Origin: Candidatus Pantoea soli
Lineage (GTDB): Bacteria > Pseudomonadota > Gammaproteobacteria > Enterobacterales > Enterobacteriaceae
NCBI RefSeq assembly: GCF_007833795.1
Contig: NZ_CP032702.1
Location: 2,170,001-2,234,000 of the forward strand
Direction of reading: 5' to 3'
Length of the DNA: 64,000 bases
In this document: piece after piece, positions 23,803 to 60,368 of the stretch
Numbering within the stretch: position 1 is the first letter of the stretch
Layout of the letters: each line of letters begins with the position of its first letter
Translations under genes and position numbers: made by a program
Notes under the pieces: model-generated
Databases searched by the model: none
What the model saw: the letters and a program-made list of their open reading frames with translations, nothing else
Told to the model about the DNA's origin: nothing

Positions 23803-23804
23803 AT

Positions 23805-43975: not shown

Positions 43976-44698
43976 TCAGCGCGCTCCCGTTAACCGGGCT
44001 CGCAGGCGTTTGATCGCCTGACTGTGCAACTGGCTGACGCGGGATTCTCCCACTTCAAGCACCGCGCCAATCTCTTTCAGGTTCAGTTCTTCCTGGTAGT
44101 ACAGTGTGAGCACCAATTTTTCGCGTTCGGGCAGCGCCTCGATCGCTTCAATCACGCGTTCACGCAGGTTTCCTTCCATTAACTGATGCAGCGGGTTAGC
44201 TTCCTCATGGCCCTCTGTCACCAGTTCCGCACTGTCGCCGTGTTCTTCCCGATACTCGTCGTAGGAGAAGAGCTGACTATTATTGGTATCCAGCAGAATC
44301 TGCCGGTACTCTTCCAGTGATACATTCAGACGCTCAGCCACTTCCTGCTCGGTCGCCGCGCGCCCCAGCGCCTGCTCTACCTGATGCATAGCGCCGGCCA
44401 CCTCACGTGCGTTGCGTCGCACGCTGCGGGGAGCCCAGTCGCGGCTGCGCAACTCATCCAGCATTGCCCCTCTGATGCGTTGTACTGCGTAGGTGGTAAA
44501 GGCGGTGCCCTGCAGCGCGTCATAGCGCTCCACGGCATTCAGTAAACCGATGCCACCCGCCTGTAACAAATCATCAAGCTCAACGCTGGCTGGCAGACGT
44601 ACCTGCAGACGCAGCGCTTCATGCCGCACCAGAGGGACGTAGCGCTGCCAGAGCGAATGTTTATCCATCACGCCGTCGGCGGTATAGAGATCGTTCAC
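43976..44698 (-). CDS. fliA: FliA, flagellar sigma factor 28
   Basis: A 240-aa sigma factor directing class 3 flagellar genes. It begins with GTG, as in E. coli. Residues 10-110 are almost identical to the enterobacterial protein (VMDKHSLWQRYVPLVRHEAL; sigma region 2 GIGLLNAVERYD). Region 4 ends KEIGAVLEVGESRVSQLHSQ. The C-terminal third is more diverged. A sigma-28-type promoter lies just upstream, so FliA probably autoregulates. At least five further sigma-28-like promoters in this window are candidate targets. Confidence 0.98.
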   Translation of the reverse strand: MNDLYTADGVMDKHSLWQRYVPLVRHEALRLQVRLPASVELDDLLQAGGIGLLNAVERYDALQGTAFTTYAVQRIRGAMLDELRSRDWAPRSVRRNAREVAGAMHQVEQALGRAATEQEVAERLNVSLEEYRQILLDTNNSQLFSYDEYREEHGDSAELVTEGHEEANPLHQLMEGNLRERVIEAIEALPEREKLVLTLYYQEELNLKEIGAVLEVGESRVSQLHSQAIKRLRARLTGAR

Positions 44699-44722
44699 GT
44701 TGACTACCCTGCGTTAATTAAG

Positions 44723-44749
44723 TTATCGGCATGATTATCCAATTCTGTA
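44723..44749 (-). promoter_or_regulatory. Sigma-28 promoter of fliAZ
   Basis: On the minus strand TACAGAAT-N11-GCCGATAA, with a perfect -10 and a 5/8 -35 match to TAAAGTTT-N11-GCCGATAA. It is followed by CTTAATTAACGCAGGG, resembling the Salmonella fliA class 3 promoter. The -10 is 25 bases upstream of the GTG. Confidence 0.8.
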
Positions 44750-44841
44750 GAGGTTTCGATTGGCAGAATAGGCAGGCAAAAGCAAGGTTATTTCAGATTT
44801 GTAATGAATGGCGGTGGATCGCACCGCCAGCGCGGGATCGA

Positions 44842-45810
44842 TCAGCGCAGGTTGCGCAGGCGCTGCCTTGTGCCGGGCGGCACGGCGTCCCACAGTACGC
44901 AGGTTTTGCCCTCCAGCGCCTGATAAAAGAGGCTAATGGACGCGTCGCTCTCCAGCGCGTGATTAAACAGCACCTGACCCGTTTCCGCATCAATGCTTAT
45001 CATTTTATTGATAAACAACCGCTGCAGATCGCTGCGCAGAAATAAGCCGTTATCCACGCTGTTATCGGCGAGAAAGCCCTCTTCGTTCTCCTGGGTGTCA
45101 ATATGACAGGCTTCCACCCACGGCCAGCTGTGCCGCTCCGTTAAGCGCGTACCGGTAATAATACAGGCCCCGTAGCGCGCCCTGACGGCGGAACTGAACT
45201 CTGCCTGGCTGGCGCGCTGCAGCACCCGGGCTTTCACCCGCCGCCCGACCTCGGTGCCGGGCATCACCGCCGCCGGCATTTTCTGCTGCGGCGTGCTCAG
45301 CACCACCAGAAACTGAATGCGGCGCGACAGCGGAAAACAGGGATGCGCCTGCCGGTCAAACAGCTGCCAGTACTCCTCTTCTTCGGTCTGACGCATCAGC
45401 ACCAGCTTGTAGCCACGGCTGCTCAGCAGATTCTGTGCCGCAGCGGAGCTGGGATCGAGCATGGCGTAGACCTGCGTTTCGCCAATCACCTTCCAGCGTC
45501 CGCTCTTGCGTCCGTCGTCATTGCGCCGGAAATAGAGAAACGTCTGGCCGGTCTTCAGATAGTGCTCAAAGCGGCGCAGATAATTTTTGCGTTCATTATC
45601 ATCAGAAACAATCAGCAGGTCTTCCAGCGGACTGTTGAGCTCCTGCTGGGCGAAGACCGCGCGGATGATCAGATGACGGTAGCTGGTGGACGGGCTCAGC
45701 AGGCCGCGCGCGGTGAGTTCCTTCTCTTCCGGGTGCTGCTGCGCGTAGCGCAGGGCAATCTCCTCGAAGGTCAGCAGCTCACCCGGTAACAAGTCATAAT
45801 TGAAGCGCAT
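44842..45810 (-). CDS. HNH_2-type nuclease-domain protein with a sigma-28-like promoter
   Basis: A 322-aa protein. The C-terminal ~100 residues form an HNH_2 domain (RYGACIITGTRLTERHSWPWVEACHI...NSVDNGLFLRSDLQRLF), the fold used by many orphan restriction-type endonucleases. The N-terminal ~200 residues are unrecognised, helical then beta (QTFLYFRRNDDGR). The ATG at 45810 follows GGGG by five bases. There is no methyltransferase partner. It stands between fliA and the rfb genes, with GCCGATAA at the right -10 spacing 59 bases upstream, so it may be a class 3 flagellar-regulon gene. Function unknown. Confidence 0.78.
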   Translation of the reverse strand: MRFNYDLLPGELLTFEEIALRYAQQHPEEKELTARGLLSPSTSYRHLIIRAVFAQQELNSPLEDLLIVSDDNERKNYLRRFEHYLKTGQTFLYFRRNDDGRKSGRWKVIGETQVYAMLDPSSAAAQNLLSSRGYKLVLMRQTEEEEYWQLFDRQAHPCFPLSRRIQFLVVLSTPQQKMPAAVMPGTEVGRRVKARVLQRASQAEFSSAVRARYGACIITGTRLTERHSWPWVEACHIDTQENEEGFLADNSVDNGLFLRSDLQRLFINKMISIDAETGQVLFNHALESDASISLFYQALEGKTCVLWDAVPPGTRQRLRNLR

Positions 45811-45868
45811 AGACACCCCAGAAAAAGAAAAAAGTACGACGAAAAAATTCGAGTGGTTCTGAGTGGTG

Positions 45869-45895
45869 TTATCGGCAGAGCGCCGGTGAGCTGTA
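45869..45895 (-). promoter_or_regulatory. Putative sigma-28 promoter of the HNH gene
   Basis: On the minus strand TACAGCTC-N11-GCCGATAA; the -10 is perfect and the -35 matches 5 of 8. The -35 starts TACAG like the fliA promoter of this genome. Confidence 0.65.
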
Positions 45896-46129
45896 ATCCG
45901 GCGGTGATTTTGCGACGCTTGTCATGCCGCACCAGCAATCCGCCGTCGCCGGCCAGGCAGATTTGCATTAACGCAGCATGAAACCCCGGCCAGCCCCCTG
46001 CGCCCTGTACCGCTTATCCCCGGCATTACCGGCTTTTTTACTGGTTATTCGCGCCATCAATTCCCCGCTTCCCCCCTTATTCTCAGGGCATCGCTCTGCG
46101 GGTAGCAGAGAACAGGAATAAGGAAGGCG

Positions 46130-46999
46130 ATGATGAAAGGTATAGTGCTGGCGGGTGGCACCGGCTCCCGTTTACACCCCGTGACCTGCGGCGTGTCGAA
46201 ACAGCTATTGCCGGTATATGACAAACCGATGATCTACTATCCACTTTCCGTCCTGATGCTGGCCGGTATTCAGGATATTCTGGTCATCACCACGCCGGAC
46301 GACCTGCCCGCGTTTCAGCGCCTGCTGGGAGACGGCAGCCATTTTGGCGTGAATCTGCAGTATGCCGTGCAGCCCTCGCCGGACGGCCTGGCGCAGGCGT
46401 TTATCATCGGCGAATCCTTTATTGCGGGTGAACGCTGCGCGCTGGTGCTGGGCGACAATATCTTCTTTGGTCAGAGCTTTGGCCGAACGCTGGAAGAGGT
46501 GGTGGCACGTCCTCAGGGTGCCACCGTGTTTGGTTACCGCGTGATGGACCCGGAGCGTTTTGGCGTGGTGGCGTTTGATAAGCAGTACCGCGCGGTGTCG
46601 ATCGAAGAAAAACCGGCGCAGCCGAAATCGAGTTTCGCGGTCACCGGCCTCTATTTCTACGATAAAAACGTCTGTGCCATGGCGCGCGAGGTGCGTCCGT
46701 CACCGCGCGGCGAGCTGGAAATTACCACGCTCAACCAGATGTATCTGGAGGACGGCCTGCTGAATGTTGAAGTGCTGGGCCGCGGTTTTGCCTGGCTCGA
46801 CACCGGCACCCACGATAGCCTGCTGGAAGCCTCTCACTTCATTCACACCATTGAAAAACGTCAGGGTTTTAAAATCGCCTGTCTGGAAGAGATTGCCTGG
46901 CGCAAAGGCTGGATTGGCAGTGAAGCAGTGCTGCAGCGTGCATCTTACCTGAGCAAAACCCAATACGGCCAGTATCTGCGACTGCTGGTGGAGGAGTGA
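46130..46999 (+). CDS. rfbA: RfbA/RmlA, glucose-1-phosphate thymidylyltransferase
   Basis: A 289-aa enzyme making dTDP-glucose from glucose-1-phosphate and dTTP. The nucleotide-binding start is [46 protein letters not shown] and [21 protein letters not shown] are diagnostic. Start is the first of two adjacent ATGs behind AAGGAAGG. It is first gene of rfbACD, one base from rfbC. No rfbB (4,6-dehydratase) is in the window; a copy elsewhere must supply the intermediate. Confidence 0.96.
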
Positions 47000-47000
47000 G

Positions 47001-47549
47001 ATGGACGTTATCGCGACCAGAATTGCCGATGTAAAAATCATTCAGCCCGCCGTGTTTGGCGATGCGCGCGGTTTCTTTCTGGAAACCTTCGAAAAGCGTC
47101 GCTACCAGCAGTTACTGGATATCGATCTTGATTTTGTGCAGGACAACTATTCCCGTTCAGCACAGCATGTCCTGCGCGGCCTGCACTTTCAGAAAACCCA
47201 GCCGCAGGGCAAGCTGGTGCGGGTGGTGCGCGGTGAAGTGTTTGATGTGGCCGTGGACATTCGTCCTGACTCACCCACTTTTGGCCAGTGGGAAGGCATT
47301 GTGCTTTCTGAAACCAATAAAACCCAGCTGTGGATCCCGCCGGGACTGGCGCACGGCTTCGTGGTGCTGTCTGAGATCGCCGATTTTGAATACAAATGTA
47401 CTGATTACTACGCGCCACAGGATGAAGCCTGTCTGATGTGGAACGATCCTGATATCGCCATTCAATGGCCTGTAACCCTGCCGCAGCTTTCGGCAAAAGA
47501 TCAACAAGGACTTTCTCTGCAGGAGTTAGTGCAATGCGCGTTTTGTTAA
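47001..47549 (+). CDS. rfbC: RfbC/RmlC, dTDP-4-dehydrorhamnose 3,5-epimerase
   Basis: A 182-aa cupin enzyme. Catalytic His is in VLRGLHFQ, followed by GKLVRVVRGEVFDVAVDIR, LWIPPGLAHGFVVLSE and the Tyr region YYAPQDEACL. It epimerises dTDP-4-keto-6-deoxyglucose toward L-rhamnose. GGAGGAGTGAG lies before the ATG, immediately after the rfbA stop. It overlaps rfbD by 16 bases. Confidence 0.96.
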   Translation: MDVIATRIADVKIIQPAVFGDARGFFLETFEKRRYQQLLDIDLDFVQDNYSRSAQHVLRGLHFQKTQPQGKLVRVVRGEVFDVAVDIRPDSPTFGQWEGIVLSETNKTQLWIPPGLAHGFVVLSEIADFEYKCTDYYAPQDEACLMWNDPDIAIQWPVTLPQLSAKDQQGLSLQELVQCAFC

Positions 47550-48415
47550 CCGGTGCTTACGGCCAGCTTGGCCGGAGTTTGCTGGATCGGGTACCGGCTG
47601 CGTGGGTGCTGCTGGCCTGCGGCTCGGCGGAATTAGACATTACCGATCGTGCTGCGGTTGAGCGGGTGGTGAAGAAATTCCGCCCTGATGTGATCCTAAA
47701 CGCGGCGGCTTATACCGCCGTGGATAAAGCAGAAACCGATCGCGTCCGGGCAATGAAGGTCAACGCCATTGGTCCGGAAAACCTCGCGCTGGCGGCGCGT
47801 GATGTGGGGGCCCGCCTGATCCACATCTCAACCGATTATGTGTTTGATGGCAGCAAAAAAACGCCTTACCTTGAAAGCGATCAGCCCTGCCCGATTAACT
47901 TCTACGGCCTGAGCAAGTGGGAAGGTGAAAAGCGGGTGTTTGCCGTGCTGCCGCAGGCGATCGTGATTCGCACGTCGTGGGTGTTCAGCGAATACGGTTC
48001 TAACTTCGTGAAGACCATGCTGCGTCTTGCCGCCACGCGCACTGAGCTCAGCGTGGTGAATGATCAGGTGGGATGCCCGACCTACGCCGGCGATCTGGCG
48101 ATGGCGATGATCGCGCTGGCCAGCGCGGAACAGGCGCAGGGGATCTACCATTACTGCGGCGATGTGGCCGTCAGCTGGTGTGAATTTGCCCAGGCTATCT
48201 TCGTGGTGACGCAGCAGGATACCGTGGTAAAAGGCATCAGCAGTGGGCAATACCCGACGGCTGCCGTGCGGCCGCTGAATAGCGTGATGAACTGCACGCG
48301 TCTGCAAGAGGCCGGCGTGACGCCTTCCGACTGGCAAGCCTGCCTGCTGCTGGCCCGTCTCTCCCTCTCTTCCGTCTTTACCCCGCCCGAACCGGGTGTG
48401 AAGGTGCTGCACTAA
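47534..48415 (+). CDS. rfbD: RfbD/RmlD, dTDP-4-dehydrorhamnose reductase
   Basis: A 293-aa short-chain dehydrogenase producing dTDP-L-rhamnose. The Rossmann motif is LTGAYGQLGRS, then NAAAYTAVDKAE, STDYVFDG and the catalytic YGLSKWEGE (Y-x3-K). The ATG at 47534, inside the end of rfbC with GGAG upstream, is chosen. It is the last gene of the operon; downstream are tandem terminator-bearing repeats. The order A-C-D without B differs from the common rfbBDAC clusters. Confidence 0.95.
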   Translation: MRVLLTGAYGQLGRSLLDRVPAAWVLLACGSAELDITDRAAVERVVKKFRPDVILNAAAYTAVDKAETDRVRAMKVNAIGPENLALAARDVGARLIHISTDYVFDGSKKTPYLESDQPCPINFYGLSKWEGEKRVFAVLPQAIVIRTSWVFSEYGSNFVKTMLRLAATRTELSVVNDQVGCPTYAGDLAMAMIALASAEQAQGIYHYCGDVAVSWCEFAQAIFVVTQQDTVVKGISSGQYPTAAVRPLNSVMNCTRLQEAGVTPSDWQACLLLARLSLSSVFTPPEPGVKVLH

Positions 48416-48421
48416 GGCCAG

Positions 48422-48840
48422 AAAAGGGCGTCTCAGACGCCCTGCAATTCGTGCTTCCGCAACGAATCCGTTTCCTGATGCGGTCGCGCCCGGCGACGTT
48501 TCCCCTGCCGCCGTCTTCACCCTGACCGCGCCGGATACCCGGCACCGACATAAAAAAGGGCGTATCAGACGCCCTGCAATCCGCGCATCCGCGGCGAATC
48601 CATTTTCTGATACGGTCGCACCCGGCGGCATTTCCCCTGCTGCCGTCTTCACCCTGACCGCGCCGGATGTCCTGTCCCATGCAAAAAAGCGTCTCAGACA
48701 CCCGGCAATCCGCGCATCCGCGGCGAATCCGTTTCCTGATACGGTCGCGCCCGGCAACGTTTTCCCTGCCGCCGTCTTCACTCTGGCCGCGCCGGATACC
48801 CGGCACCGACATAAAAAAAGGGCGTCTCAGACGCCCTGTG
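48422..48840. repeat. Three ~131-bp tandem repeats with terminator-like hairpins
   Basis: Units begin near 48422, 48552 and 48683, with a fourth partial at 48812. Each starts with a hairpin of the type AAAGGGCGTCTCAGACGCCC and continues with shared ~110-bp sequence (CGAATCCGTTTCCTGAT, GCCGTCTTCACCCTGACCGCGCCGGAT). They fill the space between convergent rfbD and the aminotransferase gene. The third hairpin is damaged (GCGTCTCAGACACCC). Not a CRISPR: repeats are long and have no unique spacers. They act at least as terminators in both directions. Confidence 0.85.
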
Positions 48841-48841
48841 G

Positions 48842-49990
48842 TCAGCTCACCAGCGGCAAATCGGTTTTCTGATGCTGATGTGCCAGGCTGCGTATCATCG
48901 CCACAATACTCTCAACCACCTCCAGCGCCAGCCCCGGGAACACCGGCAGGCAGAGCACGCGACTGGACATGCGCTGCGCCACAGGCAGCATTGTTTCATC
49001 GGCGCTGGCCAAATTGCGATACATCGGGAAGCTGGTGATAAGCGGATAGAAGTAGCGGCGGGCAATGATATTTTGCTCACGCAGATGCTCATAGAGCGCG
49101 TCGCGGCTTACCGGATACGCATCGGTCACCATCACCGGCAGATAGGAGTAATTCCACTCCACGCCGGCCGGAATCGTCAGCAGCTCAATGCCGTCAATCT
49201 CTGCCAGCAGCTGATGATAATGCGCCTGAATACGGGCGCGTTCCGCTAAGGCGCTGTCGATATGCTTCAGCTGCAGCAGACCAAACGCGGCCTGCACTTC
49301 ATTCATTTTGCCGTTAATGCCGGTCGCCACAATGGTGGTCTCATCGGCAAAGCCGAAGTTTTTCAGGTAATCAATGCGCTTTTTCATTTTGGCGTCACGG
49401 CAAATAATGGCACCGCCTTCAATGGTATTAAACGCTTTGGTGGCGTGGAAACTCAGTATCGAAAGATCGCCATAATTGAGGATGCTGTTGCCCTCTTTCC
49501 GCACGCCAAAGGCATGCGCCGCGTCATAGATCACCTTCAGCCCGTAGAGATCGGCAATGCGCTGGATTTTGTCAACGTCACAGGGATTGCCATAGCAGTG
49601 CACCGGCAGGATGGCCGTGGTCTGCGGGGTGATCGCCTGTTCAATTTTGCTCGCATCGATGTTGCAGCTGTGCGGATCGATATCCACAAACACCGGCGTT
49701 AAGCCATTCCACAGCAGCGAATGCGAGGTGGCAACAAAGGAGTAAGGCGTCGTGATCACTTCACCGGTGATACGCAACGCCTGCAGCGCCGTCAGCAGTG
49801 CCAGCGTCCCGTTGGTAAACAGGCACAGGTGTTCAACGCCCAGATAGCGCGCCAGCTCCTGTTCCAGCTGCTGGTGAAAAGGCCCGCCGTTGGTCAGAAT
49901 TTTATTCTGCCAGATCGCCTCCAGATACGGCACAAACTCCTCCAGCGGCGGCAACAGCGGGCTGGTAATATAAACGGGTTTCGTATTCAT
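48842..49990 (-). CDS. DegT/DnrJ/EryC1-family sugar aminotransferase
   Basis: A 382-aa PLP enzyme that transaminates a nucleotide-activated keto-sugar, probably dTDP-4-keto-6-deoxyglucose, to a 4-amino-4,6-dideoxy sugar. The internal aldimine Lys is in SFHATKAFNTIEGGAI; other family marks are LFTNGTLALLTALQAL, TTPYSFVATSHSLLWNGLTPVFVDID and ILPVHCYGNPCD. GAGGTAAAAGT precedes the ATG. It is transcribed with, or behind, the large glycosyltransferase (185-base gap). Together with rfbA it could make viosamine-like sugars as in Pseudomonas syringae flagellin glycans (inference). Confidence 0.9.
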   Translation of the reverse strand: MNTKPVYITSPLLPPLEEFVPYLEAIWQNKILTNGGPFHQQLEQELARYLGVEHLCLFTNGTLALLTALQALRITGEVITTPYSFVATSHSLLWNGLTPVFVDIDPHSCNIDASKIEQAITPQTTAILPVHCYGNPCDVDKIQRIADLYGLKVIYDAAHAFGVRKEGNSILNYGDLSILSFHATKAFNTIEGGAIICRDAKMKKRIDYLKNFGFADETTIVATGINGKMNEVQAAFGLLQLKHIDSALAERARIQAHYHQLLAEIDGIELLTIPAGVEWNYSYLPVMVTDAYPVSRDALYEHLREQNIIARRYFYPLITSFPMYRNLASADETMLPVAQRMSSRVLCLPVFPGLALEVVESIVAMIRSLAHQHQKTDLPLVS

Positions 49991-50175: not shown

Positions 50176-53100
50176 TTACTGTGTCCAGGCCGCGGCCCAG
50201 GCACGCAGATTTTCCCCGTCGAGCATCCAGTGCTGGCGGATCTCCTGCTGCAGCGTGGCGCCCATGCGCGCGCTGGCCTGCGGATCGGCAAGGTGCATGT
50301 TGATGGCGTCCACCCACTCTTTATGGCGGTTTTTCACCCGCGTCACCGTCAAATCTCCGCGGTAACACGCCACGTCGCTGCAAATCACCGGAATACCACA
50401 GGCACCGTACTCCATCAGGCGCAGGTTACTTTTGCAGGTGTTGAAGAAGTTATCTTCGACCGGTGCCAGCGCTAAATCGAGATTCAGCGAAGCCAGTTTG
50501 GCCGGGTAGCGCTCAATCTCGACGCCATGGTGATATTCATGAATATAGGGCTGTAGTTTGGCCGGGCACATGCCAAAGAAGACCCACTCCACCTGATCTT
50601 TGAAATGGCGTACCACATCCACAATCATCTCCAGATCGCCGGTATGGCTGGAGCCACCGGCCCAGCCGACGCGCGGTTTTTTCCCCTGCCCGCGCAGGGA
50701 CTGGAGCTGCCCCCACCAGTCATGCGACAGGCGGTTTTTCCGCACCACGATATCGGGATGCATGCCGGCAAACGCCTCTGCCAGCGGCTCGGTGGAGACC
50801 ACAAAGCGGTCCACATAGCTCAGACTGCGGCGCATCAGCTTTTTCACATCGTTACCAAACTGTGCACGGTGGTGATTCTTCAGCGGGATATTGGGCAGAT
50901 AGTCATCCAGCTCATAAATTTTGAACGCCTGACTGTGCCGGCTGATGTTATCCAGCCACTCATGGAATTCCGGATCAATGCGGCGCTGGAACACCAGCGT
51001 GTCAGGGGCATAGCGCTGCAGCTCTGCGACATTGATCAGTGCAGTGGAAAGTTTGCCGTCAACCAGCCCTTCTGCCCGCATCGCTTCGAAAGGCTTGATG
51101 ATGCGGTAGTAACCACAGCCGGCAAAGTCGGCCATATACGGCATCACCACCGGCAGCGGTCGCCACGACAGCGGTCGCCACGTCAGTTCACTGTCAGAGG
51201 AGATGCTAAAGTTCACGTTATTCAGCGTGAGGTTCGGGTTGTAGGCCGGATCCTGAGCAACCAGCCCGATCCATTTTTGCAGCTGAGCCGTCTCTTCTGC
51301 GCTGCGCGCCGCGCTATCGACCGTCTGCTCCGGATTGATCTGCCGCAGCAGCCGGACATACGGCGTCCAGACCGTCATTAAACCGGCGTCGCGCACCCGC
51401 AGACAAAAATCGATGTCGTCGTAATAGCCTAAGCTTTCATCGAAGCCGTTCAGGGCCTGGAAAACCTCCGTCCGGATCATCATCAGATCGCCGGAAACGG
51501 CGCTGTAGTTCTGATCGGCCTGCAGACGCGTCATGTGCCCGGCCAGCTCGTTGCTGTCCCCATAGAACGGTTCACCCGCCAGGCCATTGATGCCCAGCAC
51601 GTAGCCCGCATGGCGCACCAGGCCGTTGGCATAAATCTGCTTCGCACCGGTGATCGCTACTTCCGGACGCTGTGCATGGTTCAGCAGGTTGTCCAGCCAG
51701 CTGTGATCCAGCACGGCCAGATCGCTGTTCAGCAGCAGCAGATAGTCGCCGCGCGCTTCAGCAGCGGCGGCATTGACCATGCGGGCGCGATGGAATTTGC
51801 CGGCCAGCTGCAGCACGCGAATGCGCGCCGGGTCAATATCCGCCATGCCGCGCAGCCAGTCGTGCTGTGCCTGAGTGCCCCCTTCGGCGGCAACCAGAAT
51901 CAGCTCATAATTCTGCGAAGCGGTTTTTTCCATCAGCGAGGTCACGCAGCTCACCAGGTTCGCCAGGTGGTTGCTGATCACGATCACAATGGAGACCGGT
52001 GCCGGCCGGGCGTGTGCATAGTGCAGCTGATAGGTATTGTGCGGACTCAGGCTGACTGTGGCATCCGCGTAGCCGCGGTGCTGCAGGTGAGTGCGAATAA
52101 TGGCGCGCTCTTCTTCGGCGGGCTGGCGCAGCTCGTGGGTCTGCACCAGCGGCTCGGCAAGGTGGCCGATGACGCCGAAAGGCTGCGTTTCCACGGTGCG
52201 CAGAATCGCGTCGAGTTCAAAACTCACCGGCCAGTGCGGCGCAAAGCCGCCGAGCTGCTGCAGGTACTCCCGGCGATAAAGCCAGTGACTGGCCATTCTG
52301 GCCGGATTGCTGAGCAGCAGATCGAGGTTAAAGTCCGGACGGAATGACGCCCCGACCGGCCGTCCGTTCACCGGATGCACCTCATCTGCATAGATCAGCT
52401 GGCAGTGCGCGACATCCGGCAACACCGTGCCCAGCGCCTGCAAACCGGAAGAGTAAAGCTGGCTGCCGGCACGGATAATCAGCAGCCAGTCAAATCCGCC
52501 GGCGGCGATCAGCGCATTGATCGCCGGGACGATCTGATCGTCGCGCACGTCAATACGCGCTTCCGCCGGCGGGGTAAAGGTCTGGTGCGGCGCAGCCAGC
52601 ACCACCGGATGCAGGGTTAAACCGATAACCGGGCACTGCAGGCTGTTCAGGGTGGTCTGCCACGCCTGCTGGCTGGCGTGACGGGCATCAATCAGCACCC
52701 GGATGTGTGCCGCCGGCTGGTGGGCAAGGTGTTGCGTAATCAGGCGCTGGTCCAGCGGACGCAGCGTACGCTGGCGGAACCAGCGGGCAAAATAGCTTTC
52801 GGTCAGCGCATTTTGCAGCGCGCTGCTGAGGTCAAACGGCTGGAACTGCAGGGGATCGTGCAGCGGTGCGCAGCCGATCCAGCCCGTTTCCAGCGCCGCG
52901 TTATACCAGCCCAGCTGTTTAATCTCTTCCGGTAAACGCTTATGTGACTGGCTGGCGACGGTGCCATCGAGGCGCGCTTCCTGACTAATCTGTTCACGCG
53001 ACACGCGCACCTGCGACAGAGACTGCGGCAGGTAAACCAGATGGCCGTGGCGCAACACGCGCAGATAAATCACCAGATCGGCAATAAACGGCAGTTCTTC

Positions 53101-53682
53101 ATCGACCAGCGTGTGCAGCGCTTTCTTATCTTCCAGCAGCGTGCGCAGCACCGCCGTGCGCATCAGCACCGCACTCGGTTCACCAATGAAGTTGTTCAGC
53201 TGATCGGCCTGCCAGCGCGCCATATCCTGCCCATGAAACACGGCCGCTTCCTGCAGGGGGGAGACGCTGTAGAGTTCATCGTTCAGCGCTTTTCCTGTGG
53301 AATCGATACGGTCACGCTTGCCGGTTGCCATTACCGCTTCCGGCACCTGCTCAAGGGCAGCAACCAGCTGTGACACGGCCTGCGGCAGCAGGATGTCATC
53401 GTCATAAAGAAACTTAACGTATTCACCCTGCGCACGCGAAATCGCCTGGCGGAGGTTGGCGATTTCGCCTAAGGAGGGCTGATGCTTCTGATAAGCGATA
53501 GGGAACCGGCTTTCGGCCCGACAGGCATCGACAATCGCCGCGATTTTATCGTCGGGACGATCGTCGCCGATGATAATTTCGCAGTGAGGATAATCCTGTG
53601 CCAGAGCACTCTTCAGGGCCTGTTCGAACCAGGTGGCCTTATACGCGGGGATGATTATGCTTACCAGAGCGTGCGCGTTCAT
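50176..53682 (-). CDS. 1168-aa multidomain glycosyltransferase (candidate flagellin glycosyltransferase)
   Basis: A cytoplasmic protein with several glycosyltransferase units. Residues ~1-240 are GT2 (VSIIIPAYKATWFEQALKSA; DDD in KFLYDDDILLP). Residues ~330-545 are a degenerate GT-A-like part (LIYADEVHPVNG). Residues ~555-800 are a second GT2 (VSIVIVISNHLANLVSCVTS; LLLNSDLAVLDHSW; GYYDDIDFCLRVRDAG). Residues ~860-1168 are a GT-B-like part (RVGWAGGSSHTGDLEMIV; NLRLMEYGACGIPVI). Such fusions build short glycans on flagellin. Its place directly downstream of three flagellin genes and upstream of an amino-sugar gene supports that role. It is possibly the source of a whole oligosaccharide. Confidence 0.88.
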   Translation of the reverse strand: MNAHALVSIIIPAYKATWFEQALKSALAQDYPHCEIIIGDDRPDDKIAAIVDACRAESRFPIAYQKHQPSLGEIANLRQAISRAQGEYVKFLYDDDILLPQAVSQLVAALEQVPEAVMATGKRDRIDSTGKALNDELYSVSPLQEAAVFHGQDMARWQADQLNNFIGEPSAVLMRTAVLRTLLEDKKALHTLVDEELPFIADLVIYLRVLRHGHLVYLPQSLSQVRVSREQISQEARLDGTVASQSHKRLPEEIKQLGWYNAALETGWIGCAPLHDPLQFQPFDLSSALQNALTESYFARWFRQRTLRPLDQRLITQHLAHQPAAHIRVLIDARHASQQAWQTTLNSLQCPVIGLTLHPVVLAAPHQTFTPPAEARIDVRDDQIVPAINALIAAGGFDWLLIIRAGSQLYSSGLQALGTVLPDVAHCQLIYADEVHPVNGRPVGASFRPDFNLDLLLSNPARMASHWLYRREYLQQLGGFAPHWPVSFELDAILRTVETQPFGVIGHLAEPLVQTHELRQPAEEERAIIRTHLQHRGYADATVSLSPHNTYQLHYAHARPAPVSIVIVISNHLANLVSCVTSLMEKTASQNYELILVAAEGGTQAQHDWLRGMADIDPARIRVLQLAGKFHRARMVNAAAAEARGDYLLLLNSDLAVLDHSWLDNLLNHAQRPEVAITGAKQIYANGLVRHAGYVLGINGLAGEPFYGDSNELAGHMTRLQADQNYSAVSGDLMMIRTEVFQALNGFDESLGYYDDIDFCLRVRDAGLMTVWTPYVRLLRQINPEQTVDSAARSAEETAQLQKWIGLVAQDPAYNPNLTLNNVNFSISSDSELTWRPLSWRPLPVVMPYMADFAGCGYYRIIKPFEAMRAEGLVDGKLSTALINVAELQRYAPDTLVFQRRIDPEFHEWLDNISRHSQAFKIYELDDYLPNIPLKNHHRAQFGNDVKKLMRRSLSYVDRFVVSTEPLAEAFAGMHPDIVVRKNRLSHDWWGQLQSLRGQGKKPRVGWAGGSSHTGDLEMIVDVVRHFKDQVEWVFFGMCPAKLQPYIHEYHHGVEIERYPAKLASLNLDLALAPVEDNFFNTCKSNLRLMEYGACGIPVICSDVACYRGDLTVTRVKNRHKEWVDAINMHLADPQASARMGATLQQEIRQHWMLDGENLRAWAAAWTQ

Positions 53683-53852: not shown

Positions 53853-54785
53853 TTAACGCAGCAGAGACAGCATGGTCTGTGGCACCTGGTTGGCCTGCGC
53901 CAGTACTGAAGAGCCAGCCTGCTGCAGGATCTGCGAGCGGGACATGTTGGACACTTCGGTCGCGTAGTCAGAATCCTGAATACGGCTGCGCGCTGCAGAC
54001 AGGTTGTTCACCGTGTTGTTCAGGTTGGTGATGGTCGATTCGAAGCGGTTCTGCGACGCACCCAGCAGGCTGCGCTGAGAGTCAACAGACTTGATCGCTG
54101 CGTCGATGTCAGCCAGCGGCGTGGTGCCGGATGCTGCACCCGATGCGCCGCCGGTCACGGCACCTTTCAGCACGTCGAAGCCTTCCGCGCTGGTGGTACG
54201 CGCGGTGCCGTTCACGGTGTCACCGGAGGTCATCGCACGGGTGTTCAGTGCGGTGCCGCTGGTGCCGGCTTTCGCCAGGTTGTAGCCATCGCTGGAGCTG
54301 ATGGTGATAGCGATGGTTTCGCCGTCTTTTGAACCCACCTGGAAGTTGTAGTTGGTTGAGCCGGAACCGGTGTTCAGCACTTTGATGCCGTTGAAGTCGG
54401 TCTGCGACGTCACGCGGTTGATCTCTTCCATACGCTGGTTAACTTCAGCCTGGATGGAGTCGATGTCAGATGCAGAGTTAGAGCTGTTCTGCGCCTGTAC
54501 GGTCAGGTCACGCACACGCTGTAAGTTGTTGTTGATCTCGGACAGCGCGCCTTCAGCGGTCTGTGCCAGAGAGATACCGTCGTTGGCGTTACGTGCAGCA
54601 ACGGTCAGGCCATTAATGTTAGAGGTGAAGCGGTTAGCAATCGCCTGACCTGCAGCATCATCTTTTGCGCTGTTAATACGCAGACCAGAAGAGAGACGCT
54701 CAATCGCCGTGCCCAGAGACGCCTGTGATTTTGACAGGTTGTTCTGAGTCGTCAGCGACAATGTGTTGGTATTAATCACTGCCAT
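53853..54785 (-). CDS. fliC: Flagellin, copy 1
   Basis: A 310-aa filament protein, exported by the flagellar type III system. The N-terminal D0/D1 (AVINTNTLSLTTQNNLSKSQ..IERLSSGLRINSAKDDAAG) and C-terminal D1/D0 (NRFESTITNLNNTVNNLSAA..QVPQTMLSLLR) are canonical. The central part is very short (~residues 150-230) and Ser/Thr-rich (SGTALNTRAMTSGDTVNGTA), so it lacks big surface domains (E. coli FliC is ~498 aa). Identical in protein sequence to copy 3. It has its own sigma-28 promoter and terminator. Ser/Thr in the centre are plausible glycosylation sites (inference). Confidence 0.97.
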   Translation of the reverse strand: MAVINTNTLSLTTQNNLSKSQASLGTAIERLSSGLRINSAKDDAAGQAIANRFTSNINGLTVAARNANDGISLAQTAEGALSEINNNLQRVRDLTVQAQNSSNSASDIDSIQAEVNQRMEEINRVTSQTDFNGIKVLNTGSGSTNYNFQVGSKDGETIAITISSSDGYNLAKAGTSGTALNTRAMTSGDTVNGTARTTSAEGFDVLKGAVTGGASGAASGTTPLADIDAAIKSVDSQRSLLGASQNRFESTITNLNNTVNNLSAARSRIQDSDYATEVSNMSRSQILQQAGSSVLAQANQVPQTMLSLLR

Positions 54786-54982: not shown

Positions 54983-55010
54983 AAAAAAACGGAGCCACTG
55001 GCTCCGTTTT
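54983..55010 (-). terminator. Terminator of flagellin copy 2
   Basis: On the minus strand ACGGAGCC-AGT-GGCTCCGT is followed by TTTTTTAT. Confidence 0.9.
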
Positions 55011-55031
55011 GTTTGCATGCCTGCTGAATAA

Positions 55032-55964
55032 TTAACGCAGCAGAGACAGCATGGTCTGTGGCACCTGGTTGGCCTGCGCCAGTACAGAAGAGCCAGCCTG
55101 CTGCAGGATCTGCGCACGGGACATGTTGGACACTTCGGTCGCGTAGTCAGAATCCTGAATACGGCTGCGCGCTGCAGACAGGTTGTTCACCGTGTTGTTC
55201 AGGTTGGTGATGGTCGATTCAAAGCGGTTCTGCGACGCACCCAGCAGGCTGCGCTGAGAGTCAACAGCTTTGATCGCGGTATCGATGTCAGCCAGCGGCG
55301 TAGAGCCGGATGCTGCACCGGATGCGCCGCCGGTCACGGCACCTTTCAGCACGTCGAAGCCTTCCGCGCTGGTGGTACGTGCGGTGCCGTTCACGGTGTC
55401 ACCGGAGGTCATCGCACGGGTGTTCAGTGCGGTGCCGCTGGTGCCGGCTTTCGCCAGGTTGAACTTATCGCTGGAGTCGATGGTGATAGCGATGGTTTCG
55501 CCGTCTTTTGAACCCACCTGGAAGTTGTAGTTGGTTGAGCCGGAACCGGTGTTCAGCACTTTGATGCCGTTGAAGTCGGTCTGCGACGTCACGCGGTTGA
55601 TCTCTTCCATACGCTGGTTAACTTCAGCCTGGATGGAGTCGATGTCAGATGCAGAGTTAGAGCTGTTCTGCGCCTGTACGGTCAGGTCACGTACACGCTG
55701 TAAGTTGTTGTTGATCTCGGACAGCGCGCCTTCAGCGGTCTGTGCCAGAGAGATACCGTCGTTGGCGTTACGTGCAGCAACGGTCAGGCCATTGATGTTG
55801 GAGGTGAAGCGGTTAGCAATCGCCTGACCTGCAGCATCATCTTTTGCACTGTTAATACGCAGACCAGAAGAGAGACGCTCGATCGCGGTGCCCAGAGAGG
55901 CCTGAGATTTAGACAGGTTGTTCTGAGTGGTCAGTGACAATGTGTTGGTGTTAATAACTGCCAT
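55032..55964 (-). CDS. fliC: Flagellin, copy 2 (variant)
   Basis: 310 aa, the same architecture as copies 1 and 3. It differs from them at seven residues: DSSDKF for SSSDGY in the centre, GSTPL for GTTPL, DTAIKA for DAAIKS, and SRAQ for SRSQ near the C-terminus. It has its own sigma-28 promoter with the best match of the three and its own terminator. The different 5' leader and terminator show that each unit is independently transcribed. The filament could be a mixed polymer. Confidence 0.97.
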   Translation of the reverse strand: MAVINTNTLSLTTQNNLSKSQASLGTAIERLSSGLRINSAKDDAAGQAIANRFTSNINGLTVAARNANDGISLAQTAEGALSEINNNLQRVRDLTVQAQNSSNSASDIDSIQAEVNQRMEEINRVTSQTDFNGIKVLNTGSGSTNYNFQVGSKDGETIAITIDSSDKFNLAKAGTSGTALNTRAMTSGDTVNGTARTTSAEGFDVLKGAVTGGASGAASGSTPLADIDTAIKAVDSQRSLLGASQNRFESTITNLNNTVNNLSAARSRIQDSDYATEVSNMSRAQILQQAGSSVLAQANQVPQTMLSLLR

Positions 55965-56032
55965 GATGTTTATTCCTTAACAGGTAGTGGATTCAGGCCG
56001 AAAGCCCTGGGCGTTCTCGCCGTCGTGAAAAT

Positions 56033-56059
56033 TTATCGGCAGCCGCTTCACAACCTTTA
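56033..56059 (-). promoter_or_regulatory. Sigma-28 promoter of flagellin copy 2
   Basis: On the minus strand TAAAGGTT-N11-GCCGATAA, -35 7/8 and -10 8/8, 69 bases upstream of the ATG. The best sigma-28 match in the window. Confidence 0.93.
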
Positions 56060-56122
56060 ATGATGATTTTGTGAAAAAACGGCGTCAGCGATGTGACTGA
56101 ACAGAATCTGACCAGTGGCCGC

Positions 56123-56150
56123 AAAAAAAAAGCTCCCGAAAGGGAGCTTT
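56123..56150 (-). terminator. Terminator of flagellin copy 3
   Basis: On the minus strand AAAGCTCCC-TTTC-GGGAGCTTTTT followed by further T, 19 bases after the stop. Confidence 0.9.
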
Positions 56151-56168
56151 GTCGGTACGCCGTGCGAA

Positions 56169-57101
56169 TTAACGCAGCAGAGACAGCATGGTCTGTGGTA
56201 CCTGGTTGGCCTGCGCCAGTACTGATGAGCCAGCCTGCTGCAGGATCTGCGAGCGGGACATGTTGGACACTTCGGTCGCGTAGTCAGAATCCTGAATACG
56301 GCTGCGCGCTGCAGACAGGTTGTTCACCGTGTTGTTCAGGTTGGTGATGGTCGATTCGAAGCGGTTCTGCGACGCACCCAGCAGGCTGCGCTGAGAGTCA
56401 ACAGACTTGATCGCTGCGTCGATGTCAGCCAGCGGCGTGGTGCCGGATGCTGCACCCGATGCGCCGCCGGTCACGGCACCTTTCAGCACGTCGAAGCCTT
56501 CCGCGCTGGTGGTACGCGCGGTGCCGTTCACGGTGTCACCGGAGGTCATCGCACGGGTGTTCAGTGCGGTGCCGCTGGTGCCGGCTTTCGCCAGGTTGTA
56601 GCCATCGCTGGAGCTGATGGTGATAGCGATGGTTTCGCCGTCTTTTGAACCCACCTGGAAGTTGTAGTTGGTTGAGCCGGAACCGGTGTTCAGCACTTTG
56701 ATGCCGTTGAAGTCGGTCTGCGACGTCACGCGGTTGATCTCTTCCATACGCTGGTTAACTTCAGCCTGGATGGAGTCGATGTCAGATGCAGAGTTAGAGC
56801 TGTTCTGCGCCTGTACGGTCAGGTCACGCACACGCTGTAAGTTGTTGTTGATCTCGGACAGCGCGCCTTCAGCGGTCTGTGCCAGAGAGATACCGTCGTT
56901 GGCGTTACGTGCAGCAACGGTCAGGCCGTTGATGTTAGAGGTGAAGCGGTTAGCAATCGCCTGACCAGCAGCATCATCTTTTGCGCTGTTAATACGCAGA
57001 CCAGAAGACAGACGCTCAATTGCGGTGCCCAGAGAAGCCTGAGATTTAGACAGGTTATTCTGAGTAGTCAGTGACAGTGTGTTGGTGTTAATAACGGCCA
57101 T
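56169..57101 (-). CDS. fliC: Flagellin, copy 3
   Basis: 310 aa, identical in protein sequence to copy 1 although the DNA differs at scattered synonymous positions, mostly toward the 5' end. Same D0/D1 termini and short Ser/Thr-rich centre. The gene next to fliD occupies the position of fliC in E. coli/Salmonella and is probably the ancestral locus from which the other two were duplicated. Own sigma-28 promoter and terminator. Confidence 0.97.
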   Translation of the reverse strand: MAVINTNTLSLTTQNNLSKSQASLGTAIERLSSGLRINSAKDDAAGQAIANRFTSNINGLTVAARNANDGISLAQTAEGALSEINNNLQRVRDLTVQAQNSSNSASDIDSIQAEVNQRMEEINRVTSQTDFNGIKVLNTGSGSTNYNFQVGSKDGETIAITISSSDGYNLAKAGTSGTALNTRAMTSGDTVNGTARTTSAEGFDVLKGAVTGGASGAASGTTPLADIDAAIKSVDSQRSLLGASQNRFESTITNLNNTVNNLSAARSRIQDSDYATEVSNMSRSQILQQAGSSVLAQANQVPQTMLSLLR

Positions 57102-57171
57102 GAGAAATTCCTTAAATAAAAAGTTGAGGTTCTGTCGGGCTTGTGGCCCGGGGCCATTCAGCTTGCTTTGG

Positions 57172-57198
57172 TTATCGTCGGGGGGTGAAAAAACCTTA
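57172..57198 (-). promoter_or_regulatory. Sigma-28 promoter of flagellin copy 3
   Basis: On the minus strand TAAGGTTT-N11-GACGATAA, 7/8 matches in each box, 71 bases upstream of the ATG. Confidence 0.9.
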
Positions 57199-57270
57199 GA
57201 ATTTTTTTAAACGCCGGAAACAGCCCCTGAACCCTTCTCTATTTGCCTTATTGTTTTTTTTGCCCGGCAC

Positions 57271-57297
57271 TAATATTTTTCCGGTCGCTGCCGATAC
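57271..57297 (+). promoter_or_regulatory. Sigma-28 promoter of fliDST
   Basis: TAATATTT-N11-GCCGATAC, 6/8 and 7/8 matches, 37 bases upstream of fliD and divergent from flagellin copy 3. Confidence 0.82.
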
Positions 57298-57333
57298 CTT
57301 CCCAGTGATAGTCCACTAACTAAGGATCAGAAC

Positions 57334-58737
57334 ATGGCAAGTGTCAGTAATCTTAATGCCGGCAACAGCCTGGGCTTAAGCGATCTCTATGACCAACTGC
57401 AGTCTGCAGAACAGGCTAACCTTACGCCCATCACCACGCAGCAAACCTCGTTCAAAGCGAAGCTGACGGCCTGGGGCGTGGTACAAACTTCGCTGGCGAA
57501 AGTGCAGACCGCAGCCGCCGCGCTGAAAAACACCTCTGCTATTGCTTCCACCAAAGTCAGCAGCACCAATACCGCTTTCACCGCGACGTTAGCTAACTCC
57601 GCCTCGGCGGGCAGCTACTCGGTGGAAGTAACGCAGTTAGCCAAAGCGCAGTCGCTGCTCTCGACCGCCGCCACCAGCAAAGATACCGATCTGGGTGACA
57701 GCAGCCTGGCGTCACGCACCATCACTATCAGTCAGCCTGGCCAGAGCACGCCGATGACGGTGACGCTGAACCAGGATCAGACCAGCCTGGCTGATATTCG
57801 TGATGCGATAAACAAGCAGCAGGGCAGCGTCACCGCCAGCGTGATCAAATCCGATGACAATACCTATTATCTGTCACTGACATCGCGTGATACCGGTGTC
57901 GCGAACCAGATGACGGTCAGCACCAACGATACCAAACTGGCCGGCTACATTGGCTACACCCAGGGCGGCAGCAGCAACGGCATGACCGAACAGGTGCCTG
58001 CCGCCGATGCCAAACTGAGCATCAACGGCGTCGCGATTACCCGCAGCAGCAACACCATTACGGATGCGCCGGAAGGCGTGACGCTGAACCTGACCAAAAC
58101 CAATACCGGCAGCCCGGAGACCCTCTCGGTCACCAAAGATAACGCGCCGATGATTGCCGCGGTTCAGGCTTATGTGGATGCTTACAACTCGCTGCAGACC
58201 ACCATTGCCAACCAGACCAAATATACGGCGGTTGATCCTGGCAGCACCACGCAGAACAGCAGCAACGGTGACCTGCTGGGTGATGGCACCCTTCGTAATA
58301 TCCAGACCAGCCTGCGCTCCAAGCTCTCCAGCAGCGCACAGAGCGGCGGCAGCATTTCGCTGCTGTCACAGATTGGGGTGACGCAGGATGTCAACGGCAA
58401 GCTGACGGTAGATAACACCAAGCTCAGTAACGCCCTTGATCAGAAAGCGGCGGACGTGGTGTCGTTCCTGTCAGGCGATGGCAAAACCACCGGCTTTGCC
58501 ACCCAGACCAGCAATTACCTGGATCAGGTGCTCGGGACGGATGGCTCGGTGCAGAACGCGACCGACGGCATTAACAAATCGCTGAAAAAATTATCTGACG
58601 ACTACGATCGCGTTAACGCACAGATTACCGCCACTATGGCGCGCTATAAGACTCAGTTCACGAACCTGAACACGCTGGTTTCGTCGATGACACAGACGCA
58701 AAACTATCTGACGCAGCAGTTCGCCAATATGAGCTAA
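57334..58737 (+). CDS. fliD: FliD, flagellar filament cap (HAP2)
   Basis: A 467-aa capping protein that folds flagellin at the filament tip. The N-terminus MASVSNLNAGNSLGLSDLYDQLQSAEQ and the C-terminal coiled coil (KKLSDDYDRVNAQITATMARYKTQFTNLNTLVSSM) are typical. The central beta domains carry repeated Ser/Thr. It starts the fliDST operon; divergent from fliC copy 3. Confidence 0.97.
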   Translation: MASVSNLNAGNSLGLSDLYDQLQSAEQANLTPITTQQTSFKAKLTAWGVVQTSLAKVQTAAAALKNTSAIASTKVSSTNTAFTATLANSASAGSYSVEVTQLAKAQSLLSTAATSKDTDLGDSSLASRTITISQPGQSTPMTVTLNQDQTSLADIRDAINKQQGSVTASVIKSDDNTYYLSLTSRDTGVANQMTVSTNDTKLAGYIGYTQGGSSNGMTEQVPAADAKLSINGVAITRSSNTITDAPEGVTLNLTKTNTGSPETLSVTKDNAPMIAAVQAYVDAYNSLQTTIANQTKYTAVDPGSTTQNSSNGDLLGDGTLRNIQTSLRSKLSSSAQSGGSISLLSQIGVTQDVNGKLTVDNTKLSNALDQKAADVVSFLSGDGKTTGFATQTSNYLDQVLGTDGSVQNATDGINKSLKKLSDDYDRVNAQITATMARYKTQFTNLNTLVSSMTQTQNYLTQQFANMS

Positions 58738-58748
58738 CAGGAGTGAAT

Positions 58749-59150
58749 ATGTACGCAAAAGCGGGAATACAGGCCTACGCACAGGTCGGTGTGGAGAGTG
58801 CCGTGTTAAGTGCCAGCCCACACCAGCTGGTGGTGCTGCTGTTTGATGGTGCACTGAGCGCCATGAAAAAAGCCACTATTCTGATGGAACAGGGTGATAT
58901 TCCCGGTAAAGGTCAGGCGCTGTCCAAAGCCATTAATATCATCACCAATGGTTTACGCGCCGGCCTGAATCATGAAGCTGGCGGCGACATTGCCGCCAAT
59001 CTGGATAATCTGTACGAATACATGACGCGGCGTCTGCTGGAAGCCAACCTGCGCAACGACCCGGAAGCCATTGCCGAAGTGGACCGGCTGCTCAGCAACA
59101 TTGCTGACGCCTGGAAGCAGATTGGCCCGAACGCAGCACAGGAAGCCTGA
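58749..59150 (+). CDS. fliS: FliS, flagellin export chaperone
   Basis: A 133-aa four-helix chaperone that binds the flagellin C-terminus. It starts MYAKAGIQAYAQVGVESAVLSASPHQLVVLLFDGAL, the hallmark PHQL..LLFDGA. The ATG at 58749 has AGGAG five bases upstream and is preferred over a GTG at 58743. It overlaps fliT by one base or more. Conservation of PHQLVVLLFDG supports function with all three flagellins, whose C-termini are nearly identical. Confidence 0.96.
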   Translation: MYAKAGIQAYAQVGVESAVLSASPHQLVVLLFDGALSAMKKATILMEQGDIPGKGQALSKAINIITNGLRAGLNHEAGGDIAANLDNLYEYMTRRLLEANLRNDPEAIAEVDRLLSNIADAWKQIGPNAAQEA

Positions 59151-59512
59151 TGATGAGTGCGCATGACGATCTGGTTCAGGGGTATCAGCAGCTGCTGAAA
59201 CTCAGCAATACCATGCTGGCGCAGGCACGTGACGGGCTGTGGGATGAGCTGGTCGCGGCAGAAACCACCTATGTCAGCCGCGTCATGCACCTTGCCGGCG
59301 ACCGCGATGCCAGCGCCCTGCCCGCTGCGCTGCGTCTGCAGCTGCGTCCGATGCTGAAGCAGGTGATGGACAACGAGGTGGAAATCAGACAGCGGCTGGC
59401 GGCGCGCATGGAAGAGCTGCGCTCGCTGGTGCAGCAGACCTCGCAGCAGCAAAAAGTCACCCACGCCTACGGGCGTTTCTCCAGCCAGGTACTCTATCCC
59501 AACGATCTCTGA
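59150..59512 (+). CDS. fliT: FliT, FliD chaperone and FlhDC antagonist
   Basis: A 120-aa helical protein (DDLVQGYQQLLKLSNTMLAQARDGLWDELVAAE; KQVMDNEVEIRQRLAARMEELRSLV), matching FliT in length and pattern. It chaperones FliD and, when free, inhibits FlhD4C2. Two adjacent ATG codons overlap the fliS stop; either may be used. A hairpin CAGGGAGAG-GCGA-CTCTCCCTG (59523-59544) just behind could end the operon. Confidence 0.93.
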   Translation: MMSAHDDLVQGYQQLLKLSNTMLAQARDGLWDELVAAETTYVSRVMHLAGDRDASALPAALRLQLRPMLKQVMDNEVEIRQRLAARMEELRSLVQQTSQQQKVTHAYGRFSSQVLYPNDL

Positions 59513-59522
59513 TGTGTGCTGA

Positions 59523-59544
59523 CAGGGAGAGGCGACTCTCCCTG
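59523..59544 (+). terminator. Hairpin behind fliT (possible terminator)
   Basis: A 9-bp perfect stem with a four-base loop, followed by CCGTTT rather than a full T tract, so termination efficiency is uncertain. Confidence 0.5.
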
Positions 59545-59693
59545 CCGTTTCCCCCTCCTGCCCCCCGCCGTTAAACGCATAAATACCCGCAAAAACCCGG
59601 GCTGTTCGCGCCCTTGATTTGTGTCTGCTGTGGCACAGTGACTGCACATCTGGCAGGCCTGCCGGCTTCACATTCCTCTGATAAGGTAACAAG

Positions 59694-60368
59694 ATGCTTG
59701 AGATTGCGGATTTAAAAGTGTTTTTCCAGGAGCCTGAAGTACAGCAACAGATTGACAGCGCCTGGGATAAAGTGGGTGATGCGCTGGCGGAAGCGCAGGC
59801 GGCGCTGCCGGAAGAGCTGGCCATGGCGCGCCGGGAGCTGTCGTTTCACAGCCACGTTAAATGCCTGGGCTATCTCTGCTGGCTGCTGGAGCATAACCAT
59901 GTGGCGGGCGACATCATTGAGATTGGCGTCTGGAAAGGGAAATCCACTGCGTTTATGAGTGAGATTTGCCAGCACAAACGCCGTATCATCAGCATTGACC
60001 CGATGGAGCTGGCACGGCAGGAGAGCGAACTACGCTTCTACCATGAGCGTCTGTTCCCGGAAGTACACCTGATTCGCGGCTATTCTGAACTCAGTATTGA
60101 ACGGGTACAGGCGCTGAATCCGCGCACCGTTCTGCTGCATATCGACGGCGGGCATGAAGGGCGTCACGTGCTGCTGGATTTCCTGCTCTACTCCCCTACC
60201 GTGATTTCAGGCGGCTTCATTGTGTTTGATGATTACCGCGATCATCAATACTCCCCGCAGGTCGGGCCGGCGGTGGATCTGCTGCGCGCGGGCGGCTATT
60301 TCAACGGTTTTGATGTGGTGGGCAGCCTGCCGGGCTTTGAGAACAGTTACCTGCTGCAGAAACGCTGA
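59694..60368 (+). CDS. TylF/CmcI-type class I SAM-dependent methyltransferase
   Basis: A 224-aa soluble methyltransferase. SAM motif I is IIEIGVWKGKST; IISIDPMEL, LLHIDGGHEGRHVLLDFL and GGFIVFDDYRD follow, the last two containing the acidic metal-binding residues of the macrocin/CmcI sugar or cephem O-methyltransferases. A position directly after fliDST, in place of E. coli amyA, suggests it methylates a sugar of the flagellin glycan, as VioM-type enzymes do elsewhere (inference). AAGGTAAC precedes the ATG. No sigma-28 promoter seen immediately upstream. Confidence 0.85.
   Translation: MLEIADLKVFFQEPEVQQQIDSAWDKVGDALAEAQAALPEELAMARRELSFHSHVKCLGYLCWLLEHNHVAGDIIEIGVWKGKSTAFMSEICQHKRRIISIDPMELARQESELRFYHERLFPEVHLIRGYSELSIERVQALNPRTVLLHIDGGHEGRHVLLDFLLYSPTVISGGFIVFDDYRDHQYSPQVGPAVDLLRAGGYFNGFDVVGSLPGFENSYLLQKR

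Follow-up and report, generated by a model that had tools for sequence, protein, structure and literature searches.

The window analysed here is the whole 64,000-nucleotide stretch of Candidatus Pantoea soli DNA (G000:C1:2170001-2234000, in a genome of 4.63 Mb rated 100% complete), in which an insert between the flagellar genes fliA and fliC carries sugar-nucleotide, aminotransferase and glycosyltransferase genes. Judged from the protein families and the linkage, this island very likely glycosylates flagellin. In order, the locus holds fliZ, fliA and an HNH_2 gene (minus strand), rmlA-rmlC-rmlD (plus), a tandem repeat, a DegT aminotransferase gene, the gene of a 1168-residue glycosyltransferase and three fliC genes (minus), followed by fliD-fliS-fliT and a methyltransferase gene (plus). 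The features, with the basis of each call, are as follows (ORF, open reading frame; TRF, Tandem Repeats Finder; aa, amino acids):

Beside fliA, minus strand: fliZ (NCBIfam)
43976 to 44698, minus: fliA (sigma-28), the island border (ORF; named from translation and position, not by a family call)
44842 to 45816, minus: HNH_2 endonuclease gene of the edn1 type of PMC4875605 (Pfam HNH_2, 31.9 bits)
46130 to 46999, plus: rmlA/rfbA, glucose-1-phosphate thymidylyltransferase (TIGR01207, 501.5 bits, over cut-off)
47001 to 47549, plus: rmlC/rfbC, dTDP-4-dehydrorhamnose 3,5-epimerase (TIGR01221, 254.7 bits, over cut-off)
47531 to 48415, plus: rmlD/rfbD, dTDP-4-dehydrorhamnose reductase (TIGR01214, 327.1 bits, over cut-off)
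48422 to 48873, no strand: 132-bp tandem repeat, 3.4 copies, between the convergent rmlD and DegT genes (TRF and sequence)
48842 to 49990, minus: DegT/DnrJ/EryC1/StrS aminotransferase, VioA/DesI-like (PF01041, 350.5 bits)
50176 to 53682, minus: glycosyltransferase, 1168 aa (Pfam per module, structure model, structure matches, profile comparison, motif table)
53853 to 54785, minus: fliC copy 3, 310 aa, same protein as copy 1 (ORF, Pfam)
55032 to 55964, minus: fliC copy 2, differing at 7 residues (perfect sigma-28 consensus upstream)
56169 to 57101, minus: fliC copy 1, 310 aa (sequence comparison)
57334 to 59512, plus: fliD-fliS-fliT (fliD by Pfam; fliS and fliT by position, size, translation and synteny)
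59694 to 60368, plus: CmcI/TylF-like methyltransferase (Pfam Methyltransf_24, 68.6 bits; RMNT_CmcI, 33.2; TylF, 30.7)

The genes named in a first-pass annotation of this DNA, among them the TylF/CmcI methyltransferase beyond fliDST, were all recovered as open frames of the expected families; its inventory of the fliA-fliC interval lacked one member, the HNH_2 gene. Gene content, linkage, the module make-up of the transferase and the single rmlC match are read directly from the sequence.

The flagellar linkage of the transferase extends to two bacterial families: flagellar genes lie beside transferase relatives in 23 of the 25 enterobacterial and 11 of the 13 Pseudomonadaceae stretches counted. 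The association of island and flagella is more than chance, since 23 of 25 enterobacterial relatives adjoin flagellar genes. The enterobacterial count derives from 40 retrieved stretches and covers L078-L104 (27) less L103, where a contig end cuts the transferase, and L104, where its frame is broken; L105-L117 (13 stretches with partial matches) stand outside it and hold flagellar genes in 11 of 13, the others being the broken copies of L116 and L117. The Pseudomonadaceae material consisted of 19 stretches from 17 genomes, hand-chosen from 67 matched places in 64 genomes and biased to close relatives because mostly the best full-length matches were taken; L192-L197, which fell below 36% identity or 900 aligned residues, were set aside (three of the six hold fliC/fliD), and the family sampled, that of G417, was taken to be Pseudomonadaceae from its link to proteins named Metapseudomonas and Pseudomonas. 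The window fliA matches the fliA of relatives, named by the same approach, at 88-98%, and lies next to fliZ throughout. Nearly full-length transferase relatives occur in 19 of 59 other genomes of the genus (44-48%) and 5 of 197 other genomes of the family (41-52%). In a class-wide sample 32 of the 368 other genomes gave a match at E 1e-60, in most cases to part of the enzyme only. A VioA-like DegT enzyme (at least 55% identical) shares the transferase's stretch in 10/25 enterobacterial and 8/13 Pseudomonadaceae cases, and a second enzyme, 23-32% similar, adjoins the transferase in many enterobacterial relatives.

The transferase comprises several domains in one polypeptide, as had been proposed, and Pfam, the structure model, and structure and profile comparisons resolve four modules: D1, GT2 (about residues 1-290); D2, GT2-like without a DXD motif (about 310-556); D3, GT2 (about 557-830); and D4, GT4/GT-B (842-1168). 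That this single enzyme assembles a chain of several sugars is a weaker part of the earlier proposal. The model of the whole enzyme has a predicted local distance difference test score (pLDDT) of 91 and a predicted template-modelling score (pTM) of 0.86. A single-sequence model of D2 alone was poor (pLDDT 43) and was replaced by a profile comparison, in which D2 matched D3 (probability 95.6-96.6), not D1 (4-10) and not D4 (under 1); a second structure comparison gave no row for D2 among the matches listed, which excludes nothing. The best Foldseek matches of the model are E. coli K4 chondroitin polymerase and Pasteurella heparosan synthase, with which the enzyme shares tandem GT-A modules. The likeness is confined to the fold (identities of 11-14% and 10-12% among the rows listed), and the window enzyme differs in its extra GT-B module and in a module without DXD. 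Among relatives of the transferase the first and last modules vary. Its size (about 1,170 residues), multi-module build and position beside fliC agree with what characterises the large transferases of the VioT/OrfN/Fgt type, which lie beside fliC or in a viosamine island. A contig scan with the transferase returned two weak partial relatives only, and the matches listed for the window genome (7 in all) include no further large transferase of this type, the three others listed scoring under 28 bits.

As to sugar supply, the rmlC family has a single match in a whole-genome profile search, namely the window gene, and the one rmlB above the curated cut-off lies at C1:139532-140548, directly followed by an RmlA-like gene (70% to window rmlA) and then a DegT gene. 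From their gene order, these surroundings look like an enterobacterial common antigen (ECA) cluster. Because the rmlC family matches once in the genome, dTDP-L-rhamnose would be made only with this locus, RmlB being shared with the ECA-like cluster, as far as the rmlC profile tells. The DegT-type sugar aminotransferase of the first-pass annotation is probably of the DesI/VioA type: its nearest NCBIfam model is PLP_DesI (298 bits, below the cut-off of 650), and among solved structures it is closest to 2po3_A (E 5e-66), which is DesI. Both DesI and VioA produce dTDP-4-amino-4,6-dideoxyglucose. For VioA this product is also given in PMC3927599. Three further strong DegT matches occur in the genome, one beside the RmlA-like gene, one on C2 and one on C3, the last of which appears ArnB-like from its neighbours of about 660 aa.

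Islands of this kind have been described before. De Maayer and Cowan (2016, PMC4875605) screened 2,000 Enterobacteriaceae and reported fliC-fliA inserts with glycosylation hallmarks in 307, among them flagellin glycosylation islands (FGIs) in 37 of 56 Pantoea strains; they distinguish 42 FGI types, list DegT aminotransferases and GT2 transferases as contents along with edn1, an HNH gene of Pantoea and Erwinia, and place rhamnose genes in 28 strains, with rmlB missing in all but one. The window matches this picture in its fliC-fliA insert with glycosyltransferase and sugar-biosynthesis genes inside it, rml genes without rmlB, a DegT enzyme, a GT2-family transferase, the HNH edn1 gene and the genera concerned (Pantoea and Erwinia). 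It differs in a methyltransferase beyond fliDST, outside their screened interval, in the lack of a GC drop and in its three fliC genes. The novelty implied by the first-pass annotation thus falls away and the find is mostly ordinary, because such islands at this site, Pantoea and Erwinia included, are already on record; nothing closer than PMC4875605 appeared among the open-licence papers listed for such islands. What is added is the rmlC singleton, the module make-up of the transferase, the co-occurrence of methyltransferase and transferase, and the sigma-28 site of the HNH gene.

The best-known functional analogue is the viosamine island of Pseudomonas syringae with fgt1/fgt2 (PMC3927599). 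There, the flagellin glycan depends on a viosamine transferase of 1,173 aa, an aminotransferase of 372 aa and a methyltransferase: Fgt1 attaches rhamnose to serine, and modified viosamine is then added by VioT and methylated by VioM, while strain B728a carries a methylated deoxyhexose and an N-acetylhexosamine instead. Shared with the window are the aminotransferase, the large transferase (1,173 vs 1,168 aa), the methyltransferase, the expected rhamnose supply and the flagellin target; the likeness to VioT, VioA and VioM is one of families and descriptions, not of alignment to those named sequences. The window differs in that counterparts of vioS, vioB, vioR and acp are not in the locus (ORF inspection; the remaining genome was not searched) and that no second such transferase is among the listed matches. 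The viosamine analogy is therefore incomplete, and the full modified-viosamine logic that had been carried over from P. syringae is not borne out by the locus. The window also bears comparison with the a-type island (orfA/orfN) and the b-type FgtA of P. aeruginosa (PMC3927599 and PMC11833859): the pairing of a fliC-adjacent transferase and a VioA-like aminotransferase recurs in Pseudomonadaceae, whereas FgtA is fused to a phosphotransferase, a domain that Pfam does not show in the window enzyme. A protein named from the P. aeruginosa group (P0043) matches the window transferase at 45% over its length.

On this basis a pathway can be proposed in which sugar identities, attachment residue, O-methylation and step order all follow from protein families and the P. 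syringae precedent. RmlA and an RmlB borrowed from the ECA-like cluster would supply dTDP-4-keto-6-deoxyglucose, from which RmlC and RmlD would form dTDP-L-rhamnose and the DegT enzyme dTDP-4-amino-4,6-dideoxyglucose (viosamine). While the 310-aa flagellins are still in the cytoplasm, awaiting export, the modular transferase would decorate their Ser/Thr residues with a short glycan of deoxyhexoses, one sugar of which the CmcI/TylF-like enzyme may O-methylate. Rhamnose is a probable constituent of the glycan and its methylation by this enzyme is somewhat favoured, and for a viosamine-type sugar the chances are about even. If true, a Pantoea-like bacterium would bear rhamnose-type glycans on its flagella, which can alter recognition by host receptors and by flagellum-using phages, and the transferase would be a compact case for how one multi-module protein specifies a glycan.

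Several observations weigh against flagellin glycosylation by these genes. Two of the 25 counted enterobacterial relatives (L098 and L102) lie away from flagellar genes; the absence of flagellar linkage in relatives had been named beforehand as a reason to abandon the idea, and it is thus encountered in these two stretches and not in the other 23. The acyl-gene counterparts are missing from the locus, the aminotransferase scores below the PLP_DesI cut-off, and genome uniqueness covers the rmlC profile and not rmlD. Neither rmlACD nor the transferase has a conserved sigma-28 site (a degenerate candidate before the window transferase, 8.5/12, was dropped, relatives being about at background). 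Finally, the methyltransferase is placed outside the fliA-fliC interval, and no intact copy of it occurs in 22 of the 24 genomes with a full-length transferase relative.

The genes might instead serve the synthesis or decoration of an O-antigen or exopolysaccharide at the cell surface, their flagellar position being due to chance. Genes of the rml type serve O-antigens in many bacteria. The same is stated in PMC4875605, and sources often label relatives of the transferase "O-antigen biosynthesis protein"; the two unlinked relatives point the same way. This account is nevertheless very improbable given the linkage in two families and the fact that inspection of the ORFs from fliA to yedD shows no gene for a flippase, polymerase or ligase. 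Moreover, L102 (G009:C63:189251-209127) holds a second transferase copy together with genes of the LicD, LuxC, AMP-binding, reductase, PglD-like and DegT types, has no flagellar gene, and resembles a viosamine-type island lying apart from the flagellar genes within the genus; in P. syringae such an island is unlinked to flagellar genes yet serves flagellin (PMC3927599). An island yielding rhamnose only, with the aminotransferase product unused or used elsewhere and a glycan without viosamine, is unlikely but deserves consideration: P. syringae VioT rejects unacylated viosamine, strain 642, without acyl genes, was doubted to use viosamine (same source), and the acyl genes are likewise not in the window locus. 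Set against it are the pairing of transferase and VioA-like aminotransferase within single stretches counted above, which persists even in the non-flagellar L102 and L098 (the latter with transferase, aminotransferase and ATP-grasp genes, and an EngA-type GTPase gene upstream), and the possibility that an acyl- or formyltransferase is encoded elsewhere in the genome.

That the methyltransferase is a mere passenger between fliT and yedD, unrelated to the island, is doubtful, albeit consistent with its position, with most sampled transferase genomes lacking it and with its other settings (after prkA and a yeaH-type gene in G131, near a chemotaxis-receptor gene in G073). It is rare: of the 59 other genomes sampled from the genus one has it, and of the 197 others sampled from the family three (255 distinct genomes, G011 being in both samples), with an intact match in G002 and G131 and a broken one in G073 and G087; yet all four of these genomes also have the transferase, full-length in G002, G131 and G073 and as broken pieces in G087. 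In G002 an alpha-amylase gene separates fliT from the methyltransferase gene, after which comes yedD, unlike the window, where no amylase-sized ORF lies between fliT and the methyltransferase. Among 148 Pseudomonadaceae genomes the sole one with the methyltransferase (G677) has the transferase as well, yet the transferase core is present in 64 of the 148. Three methyltransferase-transferase pairs in protein lists appear, by inference, to share contigs (of 18,921, 746,580 and 1,705,362 bases). In the class-wide sample none of the 368 other genomes had the methyltransferase at E 1e-20, although relatives with names from Pseudomonas and Xanthomonas are present in the protein database.

The product of the HNH gene carries the HNH domain of a homing endonuclease, and edn1 was treated as such and as a sign of transfer by De Maayer and Cowan (2016, PMC4875605). 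Just upstream of it, at 45895 on the minus strand, lies a sigma-28 site, TACA-N15-GCCGATAA, which is identical in the window and in 17 of 17 aligned relatives; the blocks of this site are, gene start aside, the only ones identical across all 18 rows, and a sigma-28 score of at least 11 arises by chance in about 2% of random 310-bp stretches. The gene is present in 17 of the 25 rows reaching fliA (16 distinct loci), always in fliA's orientation and 141-144 nt away, and absent from eight, one of them (L090) within the genus. The named sources of its 103 database relatives are Pantoea, Erwinia, Mixta, Paramixta, Izhakiella and one "Enterobacterales bacterium"; matches of 90-91% among them suggest a host close to P. 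dispersa. These features make edn1, described as mobile, look more like a likely member of the flagellar regulon, whereas its absence from eight rows would fit a sporadic, mobile placement; the searches for papers joining an HNH endonuclease with FliA gave nothing beyond PMC4875605. A far-reaching and very improbable extension would be that a single polypeptide assembles the entire flagellin glycan as a swappable assembly line (fixed middle, exchangeable first and last modules), so that strains could alter their flagellar sugar by exchanging modules, while a flagella-timed, sigma-28-controlled HNH protein drives hot-spot recombination and keeps the island variable.

The three short flagellins of the first-pass annotation correspond to three 310-aa fliC genes, of which two encode an identical protein and the middle one differs at 7 residues. 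Copies 1 and 3 are separated by 18 silent differences in 933 nt, a sigma-28-like site precedes each gene (scores 10, 12 and 10 of 12), and the stretches after the fliC genes contain terminator-like hairpins, as judged by eye. Far from the island (L075:5431-7323; G000:C1, about 895.4-897.3 kb) lies the gene of a second, larger flagellin of 630 aa, which has both the N- and the C-terminal flagellin domain; its neighbours are a pair of GT2 genes and a gene for a membrane protein of polysaccharide synthesis.

The GC content of the island is 58.6%, against 58.7% in the 26-43 kb part of the window, and GC at third codon positions (GC3) in its genes (57-72%) overlaps that of the neighbours. A foreign-DNA signature was therefore dropped and no claim of recent transfer is made. 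Each copy of the 132-bp tandem repeat contains a hairpin of the GGGCGTCT/AGACGCCC type with an A run next to it (a T run on the minus strand), and the array reads like a stacked terminator, a function suggested by its sequence; it had no plasmid match and was absent from the other loci compared, save those overlapping the same place. Elsewhere in the window, at about 18995-25147 and after a tRNA-Ser gene (9342-9429), proteins resembling an IS3-type transposase, a DNA cytosine methylase and a tyrosine integrase (translations judged by eye) probably mark a mobile element.

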